IMG/VR virus record: IMGVR_UViG_3300009034_000073
Coordinates: 1-45,052 of that record
From: a virus
Reading direction: 5' to 3' (one strand)
Length of the DNA: 45,052 nucleotides
Positions 3,437 to 16,647 of this stretch are shown in pieces (position 1 is the first letter of the stretch; every line of letters begins with the position of its first letter). Position numbers and translations under genes: made by a program. The notes beneath the pieces are model-generated. The model did no database searches and was not told where the DNA came from. It was given only the letters and a program-made list of their open reading frames with translations.

Positions 3437-6400
3437 TGGCTATAGAAGAACCTTTCCCTGGCATAAGCCCTACAGGACCAGAAACTTTTGGGCTTGAAGA
3501 TATGCTCAGGGGCTTGGTTCGTCATGATCTAGGCATATCTCAGGACATTCCAAATAATCTTAGAAACCTTGTTCGTAGAGATCTCCGCGAGCAGGGATAT
3601 GAAATAATAGGTGAGCTCCCAACTAGAGAAGAGCTTACTCGAAAGAAAGAGCTAGAAGAAGCAGGTAAAAAGTACAGGGCAGCCGAAGCACAAAAGGGGG
3701 TTAAGGATTTTATTAAAGAGCCTGGATTCTGGCAGCAGATGAGAGATCTTGGTCTTTCTATGTATGCAGAGAGCGTAGGCCTTATGCCGGCACAGGCTAC
3801 CTCAATCGCTTCTGAGGCTGTTGTTAGTGGATTAACTTTAAGGAATCAAGAATTTATACTTAATACTGTAGGCAAAATAGCAGGGCAGCCAGAGTTTTAT
3901 AAAACGTTTAAAGAATGGCAGAAAAAGGGATTAAAGAAAAAGCTAGGCTATGTTCCCTCACCGGAAGTTACAGCATTTGTAGAAGCTCCTCTCGAACTTG
4001 CTGCTGTTTTTGTTCCCATAAGTGGCATATTTAAAGCTGCTGCTATACCAGCCAGGATTGCTACTAAAGTTCCTTTCCTTCAGGCTTTAGCAAGAGCACA
4101 AATGACAGGATTAGCCACAGGTCTTTTGAGAAAGCCTGAAGAAGAGGGATTCTGGAATAGATTAAAACAAGTTCCTGGTGACGTTGCTTTTTTTGCTCTC
4201 TTTGAAACAGGGCTCCTTGGTGCTACCCAGGGATACAAGATGTATCGTTGGGCTAAACAGTTTAAGGGGAAGCCTCCTAAATGGGCCGGAACTTTTGGTG
4301 AATATGTACCACCTCCTGTTGGCGCTGCACAAAGAGAAATTCTTATGTCCAAACCAGAATTTAAGGAACTCTTAAGGAAGATAACTACTCGTCCTTCACA
4401 ACAGCCTTTTGAGGAATTTCTTACAGGATTAAGCAGGAAAGAAAGAGATGTTTTTGAAGCTCTTCATGGTAAAGAACAATGGAGTGATGTTTGGAATAGG
4501 GTAAAACAAGAGGGAATTTTTAGGGAAGTAATAGAGATTCCAGGATACCAGCCTCCAGGTATTCCAACTTTTGAGGCTCAAAGAATACCACTTCCAAGGC
4601 GACCAAGATTTGCTGATATATTTAGACAGGTAGATAAATACGGACGGCCACTGGGAGCTCCTGAGTTTGAGCCTTTTGCAGAAGAGGTTCCTCCACGTCC
4701 AGGAGTAGAGCCTGAAGTTCCACCGGCTGAAGCTCCTCCTCCAAGGGAAGCTCCACCGGAAGTTGCACCACCACCCAGAGAGGCCCCTCCTGAAGCTGTT
4801 CCTGCTCCGGAAGTTGCTCCTGCCAGAGCTCCTCCTCCAGCAGTCATGGTTGATGTTACGCCTACGGCTGAAGGGGGATGGACAATTAAGATCCCTCAGC
4901 CTGTGCCAACTGCTGTTCCTGGAGGATTGCAGCCAGGACCTACTATACCCTGGAGACCAGTTGTACCAGAAGCCCTTCCTCCATATAAGAAACCACCTAA
5001 AGTAATAAAGCCAAGAAAAAAGCCTGTCTTTAAGAATCCATTTTATGAAGCAGTAAATCAACTAGGTGGCGTTGCTCCAAATCCTGACTATCCATACGCT
5101 TCTTTAAAAGAGATCTTTCCTCCAGGACTGATTAAAAAAGCAGGCATGCCTATGGATACTCTTGCTCAAGCTATGAGGCATGAGTTCCCAACAATAGAAA
5201 GTGATGCAGACCTATGGGATATGGCAGATGAGATCAGAAGAGGAAGAGCAACATTTAGAGATGAAGTTACTGGAGATGAGCACGTTCCTCCAAGAGAAGA
5301 AGTTGAGGCTGAGTATCAAAGGTTCTTAGATCGCGAACCTGCCGAGATGACAAAGGCAGATTTCAATAGTCAAATCAAAGTTGCTATTAAAAATACAAAG
5401 ACAGGAGAAGTTCACAAGGGCAGGCCGGAAGAAATCATTCATGCTGATATGTTCACCAGGATACAGAATAAAGGCATAAAGCCTGAAGATATGGAAGCAG
5501 GATTTATTATTCCTAGCACTAACCAATTCATTTTTAGCTATAGCCTTAGACGACCTAAGCCAGGACAAGAGCCTACTCCAGGACCGAAGTATGATCGAGA
5601 AACATTTCATCGTGAGCTCGTAAGGAAAGCATTGGATAAGGGAGAATATATTCCTGATGAAATTTTAGCGCAGCACAAGAGAGATTATCCTGAGCTTTTT
5701 AGAGAGCCAGTTGTTTTTAAAACTGGAGATGCAGTTGAGTTTGATACGCCTGCTGGAGTGAAAACCGGAGAGATAACAGCCGTAAATAAGAAAGAGGGAA
5801 TTGCTACAATAAGAACAGAGGACGGAGCAATAGCTTCTAGGAATCTTGAAGATCTGAGGATCCGAGAAAAGCCTCCGGAAGTTGTTCCTGAAAAACCTCC
5901 TAGAGTAGCAGAAGCAAAGCCTCCGCCTGTTCCTGAAAAACTTAGCCTAACTGAGATTGAAAAGACTCTTGATGAAATGGCTATTCCTAGGATAAAGAGG
6001 GGAGTTCTGGCAGATCAGATAATTAGAAATTATAAACCTGAGAAGGGGCCCCTGAAGGCTTACATAAAATCTATCCTTCCAAAGATAACAGAAGAGGGTG
6101 AGCTCAGGGTTAAGCCTACGATTAAAAGGGCAGTAAAGCCTGCACGTATTACTCCTGAAATGGAAGAAGTAATTCCAGGGAGAGCAGAGAGACCGGAGGA
6201 CATATTTGAAAGAGCAGAGGAAGAAGCCAGGGTTCAGAAAATATTCAAGGAATCAACAAAGACAGAAAGAGAGCGCGATATTCTGGATAGAAAAATACTC
6301 AAGGGTCAAAGCTATGATGACATAGGCAGGGCTCATGGAATAACACGTCAAAGAGCAGAGCAGATATTCAAGGAATCTTTTGAGAAAGTTAAGGATCATC

Positions 6401-12073: not shown

Positions 12074-12664
12074 TTATAATTTTGGCCCCCTGTAGATTCC
12101 TTTGTACCTGATGAATTCCTTCCACTTATCGTTCCGGAGAAAGTTTGTAGGATACATGATCATGAGCTCATCAGGATCTTTGTTCATTTTTTCTGATCTA
12201 TACAGATTAATTTTTATAAGACCGGTTAGCGCACCTTCAATTTCAGAAGGCTTTACTCCATCCGACATAAGATTGAGGTAAATAATCCTTGTATCTTCCT
12301 TATAGATTTTATTAGGATAACGCTCAAAGAATTTTTCAAAGTCGTCATTGTATTGCTCCTTTAGACCATCCGGAAGTTTAATTGAAAGGATAGATCTCCA
12401 GCGTGATGAATCTTGCTGCAGCGAGTAGATTGTAGTTGTTTTAAATGAAGTTTTGTTGATGACGTTTCTATCTTCCAGGTTTGATATTGCATGAGATACA
12501 TGAGGTTTCTTTATCTTTGTCACCTCAACGAAGTCATCAAGGCTTAATGCAACAGAGCTCTCTTCTGATCCAAACGTCCTAGATAGGATGATCATGAGTA
12601 TGCGCCATTCCTTTGCCCCCATGACCAAACGTGATAATGCTTCAAATATCTTCTCCGGTATCAT
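12074..12664 (-). CDS. Replication initiator, phage O-like (winged-helix N-terminus)
   Basis: This 196-residue protein begins with the pattern of the phage replication protein O N-terminal domain: IPEKIFEALSRLVMGAKEWR, then IILSRTFGSEE and a winged helix (residues ~45-85) that would bind origin DNA. The C-terminal half (FEKFFERYP... MYPTNFLRNDKW) resembles helicase-loading replication proteins. It probably recruits host replication proteins, which fits the lack of a phage polymerase. No separate helicase or loader gene is visible nearby. Confidence 0.75.
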   Translation of the reverse strand: MIPEKIFEALSRLVMGAKEWRILMIILSRTFGSEESSVALSLDDFVEVTKIKKPHVSHAISNLEDRNVINKTSFKTTTIYSLQQDSSRWRSILSIKLPDGLKEQYNDDFEKFFERYPNKIYKEDTRIIYLNLMSDGVKPSEIEGALTGLIKINLYRSEKMNKDPDELMIMYPTNFLRNDKWKEFIRYKGIYRGPKL

Positions 12665-13079: not shown

Positions 13080-13637
13080 TTAATTGACCCTAACTTTCTT
13101 CTTCTCAGCCTCCCATCCTCCTTTGTCTTTATGTTTACCTGTTTTCCCTTGCCAACACTCCGGACAATAAATGCCGGCAAAGTGAGTTCCCCCTGCTTTT
13201 GTCGTTTCCATGACCTTGAAACAGTCACTACAAAGTACCATCCCCCTGTGGTATAGGTCCATCATCTCTTTAATTTGTGCTATCACACCATCTGGGATAG
13301 GTTTCAATAAGCTTTCTATGGGAAAAGTTAGGCAGCCAAGAAAAAGTGCTCCTTTGTAATCCCAGAATCGAAACTCAAAAAAATTATTTATGTCTGCGTT
13401 TTCTCCATAGCCTTTCTGAATCTGTGCATGTCGGTAACTTCCTGGCTGTATCTTGCTTTTCTCACCAAAGATTGTAAACCAATCTCCTTTAAGTGTATGA
13501 ACAATGACTTTGCCTTCATCTACTTTTGACCCAGTTATAAACATCATGGCAAGGAATCTGTTTTTCATTGGCTGAGTAAATTCAATTAGAGGAAGGTGTA
13601 TGAATTCGTCAAAGCTCATAAAAATTATTGCTTCCAT
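13080..13637 (-). CDS. Unknown protein with C-terminal zinc ribbon
   Basis: This 185-residue protein has no recognised family. The N-terminal ~130 residues look like a compact mixed alpha/beta domain. The C-terminal part has a zinc-ribbon pattern (CSDC ... CPEC, about residues 136-162) and a basic Lys-rich end. No ribosome site stands at normal distance from the ATG at 13637; the nearest GGAGG is about 19 bases away, inside a strong RNA stem. Its expression may therefore depend on the structured element directly upstream. Confidence 0.55.
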   Translation of the reverse strand: MEAIIFMSFDEFIHLPLIEFTQPMKNRFLAMMFITGSKVDEGKVIVHTLKGDWFTIFGEKSKIQPGSYRHAQIQKGYGENADINNFFEFRFWDYKGALFLGCLTFPIESLLKPIPDGVIAQIKEMMDLYHRGMVLCSDCFKVMETTKAGGTHFAGIYCPECWQGKTGKHKDKGGWEAEKKKVRVN

Positions 13638-13647
13638 TTTTTTATAT

Positions 13648-13863
13648 GGAGGACAGCCTCCCTTAGATAGGAGAAGCTAAGGAGGATAAGCTATGACCAA
13701 ACTGAGGTGAATCATGTTTTGGTAGGTTACAGAGAGGCCGTCCATATTTTCAAAGTAGCCAGGGGAGGCATTCAACTTCCTATGGTCAGGCGTTTGGCTA
13801 CAGGCGACTAGCATAACGTCTGCGCCCTGGGACTCCCTTGCCAAGGGGTCTACCTGGCTACTT
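13648..13863 (-). ncRNA. Candidate structured RNA or leader, two domains
   Basis: This ~216-base stretch between two leftward genes holds two nested structures. The 5' domain on the minus strand is closed by an 11-bp perfect stem (13853-13863 with 13753-13763). It contains an 8-bp hairpin with a bulged A (13831-13850). The 3' domain is closed by 10 bp with one G-U (13734-13743 with 13651-13660). It contains hairpins 13661-13666/13677-13682 and 13696-13702/13716-13723. A competing hairpin, 13648-13652/13657-13661, would break the last closing stem. The G-U pair, which would be an A-C mismatch on the plus strand, favours the minus strand, the direction of the operon. It matches no RNA family I recognise. 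Confidence 0.55.
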
Positions 13864-13868
13864 AACAT

Positions 13869-14861
13869 TTACATAGCTCCTGCTAGATTTTTAATATTAA
13901 TCCTGAAGATCGTAACATCTCTTTCATATTTCTTTTTGACATCTTCCGGAATGTCGTGGGCCCTGCGCTCGTAGGATCCAACTTTGATTGTGAAGTCTCC
14001 GATCAAAAGCTCCTTCCCATCAAACGCTTCATTCCTGAATTCGCCCTTGATTTCCTTATCCAGGGCTTCAAGCTCTTTTGCTTTATCCTTTATACCAGCA
14101 TCAATGAGCGCTTGCCTGTTCTGGAGTTTTATTTCAAGTTCTGCATCATCATAAACCCTCACATCTTTTCCTGTCTCAGCACTATCCGGAAAACAAACTG
14201 TTATCATGAATCCACATCGAGAGCAGGCATCTACCTTTACCGGATCAGGCAACGTATCTTTTGCAACGTGCTGGTTTACTTCATCCAGGCCGTCAAGTAT
14301 CCGGTCAATATATTTCATCTCCAGGGGACAATTAACCTGGTGTTTCCTGGCTTTGTTCTTCTCTTTGAAAAATATAATGCCTTGATCAAACTTATACCGG
14401 ATAGTGTAGAGATAATTCTGTGCTGGATAATGTCTGATCCATAAGTGCCTGGAGCTAAGGAGCTCACCACCTTCTTTGCAGCGCGAAACCTCATTGTATA
14501 TGTTAGGACTGCATGTTTTAAAATCTATAGGAAACCAGTTTGTATTATCTTCAGAGACTAGGTATTCAATCTCGCCTTCAAGTTGGAGCTCATCCCAAAC
14601 AAAACGCTCAGGTTTCTTCAGTTTAAAGCCAGCTTCTTCAAGCTCCTGGGCTATGATCACTTCCTGGCGCTTTCCTTCGTCATAGATTCTCTGCATCTCT
14701 AGGCCATGGAGCTCGAGCTTGTCCGGCTGCGTCCGGAGCAAAACCAGGTGACGCTTGCAGTCATCCACCCAACCAGCATCATGAGCATGGTTACGTGTGC
14801 GCTCCAGACGCTTGATATTCTTCTCAGTCTTTTCGTCTAGGGTTTTTACAATATCGATCAT
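13869..14861 (-). CDS. Cas4-like PD-(D/E)XK nuclease
   Basis: This 330-residue protein shows the Cas4/RecB nuclease layout: an N-terminal Cys (C35), then EGEIEYLV, then the active-site PIDFKT (Asp113, Lys115). The QxxxY motif is QNYLY (148-152). Three Cys follow at 213, 216 and 223 (CSRC ... C) that with C35 would hold an iron-sulfur cluster. A helical C-terminal extension follows. It should be an exonuclease that makes single-stranded tails for recombination. It lies in the same block as the putative annealing protein, as in phage exonuclease/annealase pairs. Confidence 0.75.
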   Translation of the reverse strand: MIDIVKTLDEKTEKNIKRLERTRNHAHDAGWVDDCKRHLVLLRTQPDKLELHGLEMQRIYDEGKRQEVIIAQELEEAGFKLKKPERFVWDELQLEGEIEYLVSEDNTNWFPIDFKTCSPNIYNEVSRCKEGGELLSSRHLWIRHYPAQNYLYTIRYKFDQGIIFFKEKNKARKHQVNCPLEMKYIDRILDGLDEVNQHVAKDTLPDPVKVDACSRCGFMITVCFPDSAETGKDVRVYDDAELEIKLQNRQALIDAGIKDKAKELEALDKEIKGEFRNEAFDGKELLIGDFTIKVGSYERRAHDIPEDVKKKYERDVTIFRINIKNLAGAM

Positions 14862-14969: not shown

Positions 14970-15182
14970 TTATCCTCCTCTTGCTTTATCCATTGATTCT
15001 TTTTGTTCCTGTCTCTGGACATAAAAAGAACCTTCTGATCCAAACCTGGCAATTACTGATATAGCACACAGGCCAGTAAAGTCATCCCACCAGGCACACG
15101 TCTCTTTTAAGCAAAAAGATGCTATTTCTGGCAACTCGGTAACAGCAAATAATAATGGACAATACTTTTTATCTTTAGCCAT
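14970..15182 (-). CDS. Small Cys-containing protein, unknown
   Basis: This 70-residue protein has four Cys (at about 8, 24, 29 and 38) that could bind metal, around CAWWDDFTGLC. It has an AGGAGG ribosome site. Its first seven residues (MAKDKKY) equal those of the protein at 19030-19233, although the rest differs. No family is assigned. The 125 bases upstream (15183-15307) hold no gene I can support. Confidence 0.5.
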   Translation of the reverse strand: MAKDKKYCPLLFAVTELPEIASFCLKETCAWWDDFTGLCAISVIARFGSEGSFYVQRQEQKESMDKARGG

Positions 15183-15307: not shown

Positions 15308-16423
15308 TTAAAATTCTTGTGGAGGCTCTTCAGCCGGCTCTGTTTTTTGATCTTCTATCTTTTTATGCTCTGTCTTGATGGTAGCATTCAAGCCTTTCAT
15401 GACAAACGTTGCTTCTTCTTCCGTGAGGTCATCAGGTATCTTCGCCCTGGCTTCTCCAAACTTTTTGACCAGCCTTTCATGGATTGTCTTAACAAGCTCT
15501 GCTGGATCCCTTTTGTAGGTATCAGTAAGAGTGCCTAGCATCCCAGTGATAGAATTCTTTTGATCCTCACTGGCCATTACAACCGCATCTTTTATTTCTT
15601 CTTCTGTCGGCTGCCCTTCTCTATCAACTCCAAGCTCTTCGCCTGTGTCTGCTCTTTCCTCTTTCTTTTTTTCTGCCGGCTTTTCTTTGGCTTTTGCTTT
15701 AGGTTTTGCTTTCTCTTTAGGTTTTTCTTCAGCTTTTTTCTCAGGCTTCTTCTCTTCCTTCTCTTCCTCTTTGACCTCTTCCACGTGTGTCTGGTATATA
15801 TCCTCTAAGTCCTGGCTGAATAGATCAGAAAGTCTACAAGCATGAAGCGCAGCATCAATGAGAGCTCTCTTCTCTCCCATTTTTAGGAAAGTATTGACTA
15901 GGGTATGAATGTTATCGTTCTCGACTCGGTACATGGTGTACCATCTCTTGTGTTTCTTTGACTCGACCTGTTTTATCTTTAGCTCTGCCAGAGGTTTTCC
16001 TTTATCATCCTTGTGTTCCGGCCCAAGTTCGTTAGGCCATAGCCAGCGCCAGCGAAAGCGATCCTCCATTGAATTGCAATTACCTAGTCCTTCAGAGACA
16101 ATCTTCTCGGTTTTTATAGACCGGAGAGTACATTTCACCTGGAAGAAGAAAAAGGGCTTCTTCCAATCAAGCTGTTGCTCTATAACTTCGTAGGTATCAG
16201 CAAGTCCAAAGATTTTTATTACTTTTTCTGCACCAGGCTTGAGGAGCGTAGGTTTTTGTGTCCCTGGGATTACCCCATAGTCATGATCTTTATGAAGCTT
16301 CGCCTTAACAACTGCTGATATTTTAGAGTAAGCATCCAGGGTTTTCTCTACAAACTTAGGATCAAGGATTCCTAGTTCTTCGATTGGAGCAAGAGCATCC
16401 TTCTTTTTGTTATTGTTTGCCAC
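15308..16423 (-). CDS. Putative single-strand annealing/recombination protein
   Basis: This 371-residue protein is read from a GTG at 16423. That codon has AAGGAGG five bases upstream; a GTG at 16444 would sit only three bases from the promoter -10. The core motif DYGVIPGTQKPTLLKPGAEK (about 48-67), then the NCNSMEDR and KMGEKRALIDAAL segments, mark a family common in phages and plasmids that resembles ERF/Rad52-type annealing proteins. A long Lys/Glu-rich linker (~215-260) leads to a small helical C-terminal domain. The pairing with a Cas4-like nuclease supports a recombination role. The family assignment is moderately sure; the biochemical role is inferred. Confidence 0.55.
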   Translation of the reverse strand: MANNNKKKDALAPIEELGILDPKFVEKTLDAYSKISAVVKAKLHKDHDYGVIPGTQKPTLLKPGAEKVIKIFGLADTYEVIEQQLDWKKPFFFFQVKCTLRSIKTEKIVSEGLGNCNSMEDRFRWRWLWPNELGPEHKDDKGKPLAELKIKQVESKKHKRWYTMYRVENDNIHTLVNTFLKMGEKRALIDAALHACRLSDLFSQDLEDIYQTHVEEVKEEEKEEKKPEKKAEEKPKEKAKPKAKAKEKPAEKKKEERADTGEELGVDREGQPTEEEIKDAVVMASEDQKNSITGMLGTLTDTYKRDPAELVKTIHERLVKKFGEARAKIPDDLTEEEATFVMKGLNATIKTEHKKIEDQKTEPAEEPPQEF

Positions 16424-16443
16424 ATTGACCTCCTTATCTTTCA

Positions 16444-16647
16444 CTATTCTATAAGAGAATTGGCTGAAGTTGTCAACTTAAGCTTTTCAAACTCTGCATT
16501 GAGCTCATGAATCCTATCTCTTATCATCCAGATCGCGGTATCTTTCCGGATATTTTTTAAGTCCATCCTGTCTACGATCATTCCAACAACCTCAGCGCTC
16601 AGTTTTATTTTATGCAGGCTTACCTTTTCCTCTGCTGTCATGGCCAT
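16444..16647 (-). CDS. Small helical protein, unknown
   Basis: This 67-residue helical protein starts as TAATG with the previous gene. It shows no recognisable motif. Its 3' end contains the promoter of the next block, so its last ten or so codons are under double constraint. Confidence 0.5.
   Translation of the reverse strand: MAMTAEEKVSLHKIKLSAEVVGMIVDRMDLKNIRKDTAIWMIRDRIHELNAEFEKLKLTTSANSLIE
16448..16476 (-). promoter_or_regulatory. Early promoter (leftward)
   Basis: On the minus strand TTGACA (16471-16476), 17 bases, then TATAGA (16448-16453), in the shared TCTTAT context. It lies inside the last codons of the gene at 16444-16647. It would drive the annealing-protein/Cas4 block with a leader of about 20 bases that contains AAGGAGG. 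Confidence 0.75.

Follow-up and report, generated by a model that had tools for sequence, protein, structure and literature searches.

Translational coupling by RNA unfolding is known over gaps similar in size to the one considered here, as for rpmI-rplT at +52 nt (PMC12548453). In rpmI-rplT and in the MS2 coat-lysis pair, the downstream start is concealed by a structure with which an upstream open reading frame overlaps, this start lacks a usable Shine-Dalgarno (SD) sequence, and the spacing amounts to tens of bases. The same arrangement is predicted for a 216-base stretch of a phage early operon, including a downstream start with no usable SD that is hidden by structure, and this type of coupling is mechanistically the nearest known system. 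The stretch differs from the coupled pairs in the much greater size of its structure (216 nt, two domains) and in that the upstream frame, ORF63, is at most putatively coding and no homologues were found.

Riboswitches and protein-binding leaders in Rfam are likewise structured RNAs ahead of a start codon, but the stretch matches none of them, and a single sequence defines no conserved core. The phage c4 antisense RNA (RF01695) is also a structured RNA of a phage operon with complementarity to ribosome sites; in contrast, the present stretch has no Rfam match, a generic anti-SD and no sign of processing. The HK022 put RNA and EAR resemble it as structured RNAs within operons, among phage early genes, but differ in size, architecture and promoter distance, and neither sequence nor model matched. 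Put RNAs are about 70 nt long, consist of two stem-loops and lie near early promoters (PMC9378689). Type II hammerheads of Mu-like Pseudomonas phages (RF02276) are intergenic structured RNAs of phage early operons as well, and this model has no match in the window.

We propose as the likeliest reading, with a probability of roughly 0.38, that the stretch may be a lineage-specific, cis-acting structured leader that closes the gene of a 185-amino-acid protein and is coupled to the translation of ORF63.

Genomic context of the stretch

The window, that is the whole stretch of DNA analysed, is the IMG/VR virus record IMGVR_UViG_3300009034_000073 (about 45,053 bases), which encodes a P22-like portal. 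Its early operon is leftward and polycistronic, has a length of ~10 kb and carries replication and recombination genes. The 216-base stretch (13648-13863) is located ~6 kb into this operon and ~1 kb from the O-like gene, and its G+C content is raised (about 50% vs about 41%). The surrounding features are as follows.

13869-14861, minus strand: Cas4-like PD-(D/E)XK exonuclease, 330 amino acids, upstream of the stretch (phrog_1990, 5.8e-07; PADLOC Cas4, 5.3e-08)
13677-13868, minus strand: ORF63, 63 codons, starting directly after the Cas4-like stop and spanning domain 1 and most of domain 2
13080-13637, minus strand: gene of the 185-amino-acid protein, with a C-terminal cysteine-rich (zinc-ribbon-like) segment, downstream of the stretch
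12074-12664, leftward early operon: O-like replication protein

Further members of the leftward operon are a PHROG 10048 RecT-region protein, a 110-amino-acid protein and a RusA-like resolvase. The PHROG 10048 protein (15308-16444, E 6e-52) lies upstream of the Cas4-like gene, and a similar order of the two in the related phage L023 suggests a recombination module. The 185-amino-acid protein has no relative in phages or IMG/VR, and its AlphaFold model is uninformative. Neither a reverse transcriptase nor a defence match was found among the proteins tested for defence systems, and a defence or retron partner was rejected on these grounds. No promoter, terminator or processing signal was found at the edges of the stretch, no intrinsic terminator (a G+C-rich hairpin followed by a T run) was reported on the minus strand of 13640-13868, and no plus-strand promoter-like site lies between 12852 and 13862.

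Predicted fold and its strength

The following elements were considered in the computed fold of the stretch and the adjoining start codon.

13753-13863, minus strand: domain 1, a four-way junction with a perfect 11-bp closing stem (13753-13763 x 13853-13863); pair probabilities in the domain 0.75-1.0
13831-13850, 13787-13822 and 13764-13780, minus strand: predicted hairpins of domain 1
13651-13743, minus strand: domain 2, with a closing stem of 13 pairs (13731-13743 x 13651-13663; probabilities 0.76-1.0 in the closing stem)
13696-13723 and 13675-13692, minus strand: predicted hairpins of domain 2
13678-13688, minus strand: hairpin loop UAUCCUCCUU with the exact anti-Shine-Dalgarno CCUCCUUA (loop unpaired 0.70-0.99)
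13648-13661, minus strand: alternative GGAGG/CCTCC hairpin, possible on paper, not populated
13633-13650, minus strand: start-codon hairpin UCCAU (13650-13646) x AUGGA (13637-13633), which pairs the ATG of the 185-amino-acid gene (helix probability 0.89)

The initial annotation had described two domains, two closing stems (one perfect, of 11 bp, the other of 10 bp) and at least three internal hairpins. The predicted fold supports the two domains, contains five internal hairpins and includes the inverted repeat 13753-13763 / 13853-13863 (pair probabilities 0.77-1.0). The second closing stem is present too, although its length is 13 pairs, two of them G-U, and not 10 bp. The stretch is a real inverted-repeat structure.

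On the minus strand, the minimum free energy is -72.7 kcal/mol vs -60.9 +/- 4.5 for 1000 dinucleotide shuffles, 10 of which fold as low (z -2.6). The plus strand reaches -82.0 vs -68.4 +/- 4.6, with 13 of 1000 dinucleotide shuffles as low (z -2.95). Domain 1 favours the plus strand (z -4.15 vs -2.19 on the minus strand) and domain 2 the minus strand (z -3.78 vs -1.76 on the plus strand). In a scan of 150-nt windows (n=1198), this region takes ranks 12 and 25 with its minus strand and rank 2 with its plus strand; it belongs to the better-folding parts of the whole window without being unique. Perfect 11-bp repeats within 120 bases occur six times in the window (three being parts of one longer repeat) vs 2.5 +/- 1.9 in shuffles. 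The 11-bp stem by itself is weak evidence, as such stems are not rare in 45 kb.

Comparison with known RNA classes

That the stretch matches no recognised riboswitch or intron class, as first stated, agrees with the absence of any Rfam 15 match at the gathering threshold; a search of 4227 families with permissive filters and E up to 10 returned only chance matches far below threshold. No tRNA or tmRNA was detected by ARAGORN or covariance models, and at relaxed thresholds ARAGORN yields hundreds of window-wide matches, so that a match here is meaningless. Domain 1 has the shape of a cloverleaf, in which the linker measures 2 nt and a 17-nt arm is stacked. Its reading as tRNA-like (7-bp acceptor-like inner stem, UA linker, 17-nt T-arm-like hairpin) was rejected, having no Rfam or ARAGORN support. 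Rfam covariance models detected no catalytic core of a self-cleaving ribozyme, hammerhead included. A tblastn match of ORF63 (E = 2) over the type II hammerhead of Pseudomonas phage LESphi4 lies on the opposite strand and at chance level, and the hammerhead was discarded. The ribozyme of that phage, vB_Pae_LESphi4 (L029, 1003-1074, 67 bits), is located between early genes near Mu Gam and is annotated in the record.

On the features examined, the stretch is not classed as a riboswitch, ribozyme, tRNA or terminator. An integron attC site and a transposon were set aside, with no second copy and no target duplication found. A plus-strand gene relic was also rejected: the strong SD-ATG pairs yield ORFs of 5 and 3 codons only, and the open plus frame has no relative. 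These pairs, within 13676-13716, are AAGGAGG-ATAAGCT-ATG at 13693 and GAGGTGAATC-ATG at 13714.

The start of the 185-amino-acid gene

The 185-amino-acid gene was said to have no ribosome site at normal distance, and its ATG at 13637 indeed scores +1.0 kcal/mol to the anti-SD. With ORF63 set aside, 28 of the 34 other listed gene starts score -5 or better, and five of the six weaker ones overlap the end of the upstream gene. The true start might instead be an in-frame ATG at 13619, which has a weak SD (-3.3 kcal/mol to the anti-SD) and is also paired. In the full-length fold, the AUG at 13637 has an unpaired probability of 0.00-0.03. Among 31 gene starts, none is less accessible than this one (0.07), a rank that is only about a 3% event. 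The earlier suggestion that the RNA may control translation is strengthened, because the start codon itself is predicted to be paired.

The GGAGG/CCTCC hairpin, by contrast, is not supported as the working switch that had been claimed, its probability being about 0 in the full RNA; no mutually exclusive expression platform of the riboswitch kind was found. In the full-length fold, GGGAGG is paired with better partners than CCTCC. Removing the 5' arm of stem 2 still leaves the hairpin absent, because GGGAGG pairs with CUUCUCC-type partners. Because of its 19-nt distance from the ATG and its persistent pairing, GGAGG cannot serve as a normal ribosome site. The hairpin reaches 0.47 only when the RNA begins at 13662. 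Such removal of everything upstream, as a ribosome at the ORF63 stop would achieve, raises AUG accessibility from about 0.01 to 0.38-0.49. A ribosome mask over 13694-13662 only neither prevents stem 2 from forming nor opens the AUG; the coupling model therefore requires ribosomes that also hold the 5' arm open.

We postulate that domain 2 and the UCCAU x AUGGA hairpin would hide the start codon of the SD-less gene, which would be silent or weakly translated by default. Ribosomes would enter at ORF63, whose good SD comes right after the Cas4-like stop, and would melt domain 1 together with the 5' arm of the domain-2 stem. They would then stop 39 nt before the ATG and leave it open, in line with the RNA-unfolding coupling model. 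The model supposes that ORF63 is translated, that coupling occurs and that the structure is selected at all. Based on the folds, the stretch plausibly hides the start of the gene, and a ribosome finishing ORF63 could open it.

ORF63

The ribosome site of ORF63 is a GGAG 7-8 nt upstream of its start, with an SD duplex of -6.6 kcal/mol, and its stop lies 39 nt upstream of ATG 13637. The codon score of the frame is -0.16 vs 0.23 +/- 0.13 for 61-codon gene segments (5th percentile 0.014). Other small ORFs score 0.14 +/- 0.15, and ORF63 falls under all of them except one that is probably spurious. Its composition is low in Lys and Glu. On the basis of these codon scores, the stretch is probably non-coding; the original description as non-coding is likely to be right. 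No convincing relative of ORF63 was found in PHROGs, Pfam, NCBIfam, phages, IMG/VR or GTDB species genomes, and an AlphaFold model built without an alignment is uninformative, with a pLDDT of 56. Judged by its sequence, ORF63 is probably not a conserved protein; it can still be a translated leader ORF. In relatives, Cas4 is followed by small or SSB-like genes; the idea that ORF63 is a pseudogene of these was dropped, there being no similarity.

Homologues and related phages

The stretch had no blastn match among 50,697 phage records or 72,556 plasmid records. The exact DNA pattern and ORF63 peptide patterns likewise found nothing in IMG/VR or GTDB genomes; such scans demand near-identical short stretches, and a diverged homologue could escape them. 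Single-sequence covariance models of both domains, run on 14 related records, recovered the window itself only. The contigs closely related by terminase (84-86% identity) are short and do not include this region. Homologues of the Cas4-like protein, at 25-38% identity, occur in IMG/VR contigs and in one phage record. The insert is absent from all five phages with related Cas4-like genes and a readable next gene, where the next ORF begins anywhere from a 4-nt overlap to about 20 nt past the Cas4 stop.

L023: Cas4 stop 4695, next ORF start 4705
L025: Cas4 stop 4966, next ORF start 4980
L026: Cas4 stop 4897, next ORF start 4916
L028: Cas4 stop 4864, next ORF start 4861
L005: Cas4 stop 4849, next ORF start 4867

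Within the reach of these searches, the insert is specific to this lineage. In L023, a 62-amino-acid gene occupies the place of ORF63, and its protein has no similarity to ORF63. In L026, the junction that holds the structured stretch in the window, directly behind the Cas4-like gene, carries an inserted HNH-endonuclease-like ORF (4916-5422). A common hairpin is found between the SSB-like gene and the next gene in the syntenic operons of L023 (5352-5432) and L025 (5433-5530). It has a long, perfect, G+C-rich closing stem, the start ATGAATC(A/C)AAAGGCC and a T-rich tail, while the interiors are not alike. The hairpin resembles a conserved element of the phage group, either terminator-like or regulatory.

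Alternative explanations

The leader reading draws on a minus-strand fold that beats 990 of 1000 dinucleotide shuffles, on the strength of domain 2 on the transcribed strand, and on the opening of the AUG once upstream RNA is removed. Against it stand the plus strand, which folds at least as well although a minus-strand RNA does not predict this, the non-coding look of ORF63 codon usage, and the lack of homologues in the collections searched. Several of these points would fit a recently gained or decaying spacer with no selected function, whose chance fold is helped by the higher G+C content. The empty junction in the five phages agrees with this, as do the similar folding of both strands, the missing copies and homologues in every collection searched, and the roughly 1% of shuffles that fold as well, in a window that a reader had scanned for such things. 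A spacer without selected function has a substantial chance. Against it, most of the gap is taken up by two long closing stems side by side, only about 0.013 perfect 11-bp stems are expected per 229 bases (from 2.5 per 45 kb), and it is rare for a phage operon to retain 230 bases that do nothing. That ORF63 is an ordinary small phage gene, its fold being incidental, is unlikely. Its first codon directly after the Cas4-like stop, its SD duplex, its frame open for 63 codons and the 62-amino-acid gene at the same place in L023 speak for such a gene, but its codon score below both reference sets, its few Lys and Glu residues, its lack of relatives in families, phages, IMG/VR and GTDB and the dissimilar L023 protein speak against it.

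The exposed UAUCCUCCUU loop raises the question of a processed small RNA that mimics the 16S rRNA 3' end and pairs with early-gene ribosome sites, in the manner of c4 or C-rich-loop RNAs. The sequence CUUAUCCUCCUU and the ribosome sites of the genes starting at 15182 and 17706 are complementary over 11 nt, and averaged over 41 gene starts the loop pairs more strongly than any of 100 shuffles. An anti-SD fits any strong ribosome site, however, so the 8-mer alone accounts for this bias; no single target does better than shuffles (19% as good as the best one), and no promoter, terminator or processing signal was found at the edges. Such an RNA is quite improbable. A new class of phage RNA, which would be cut from the early mRNA, titrate or block early ribosome sites with its anti-SD loop and close the adjoining gene with its other arm, is very improbable. 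We give a similarly low chance as for the small RNA to an element acting at the DNA level, either an inserted inverted repeat (e.g. a transposon remnant) or a hairpin for single-stranded DNA replication. Folding of both strands, the 111-bp unit bounded by perfect 11-bp terminal repeats, the absence from relatives and the location in a replication operon, with the O-like gene about 1 kb away, would suit such an element, but there is no flanking target duplication and no second copy in the window or the collections searched, and DNA parameters give z values of only -2.3 to -3.1. A cis-acting antitermination or anti-pausing RNA, like HK022 put or EAR, has the slimmest chance: an RNA of two domains within a ~10-kb early operon of a phage would be in keeping with it, whereas put lies near early promoters (PMC9378689) and the stretch about 6 kb into the operon, and no Rfam match to epsC/EAR or others was obtained.

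Implications

Should the fold be due to chance, the locus would be a warning that a single sequence does not suffice, even with a perfect 11-bp stem and a z of -2.6. If the cis-acting leader is real, a phage would have gained a large structured leader that ties the expression of a zinc-ribbon-like protein to the translation of its neighbour, and the case would come from a phage group with almost no described members. As relatives with the same gene order lack the stretch, it would then also bear on the speed at which structured RNAs are gained and lost in phages.
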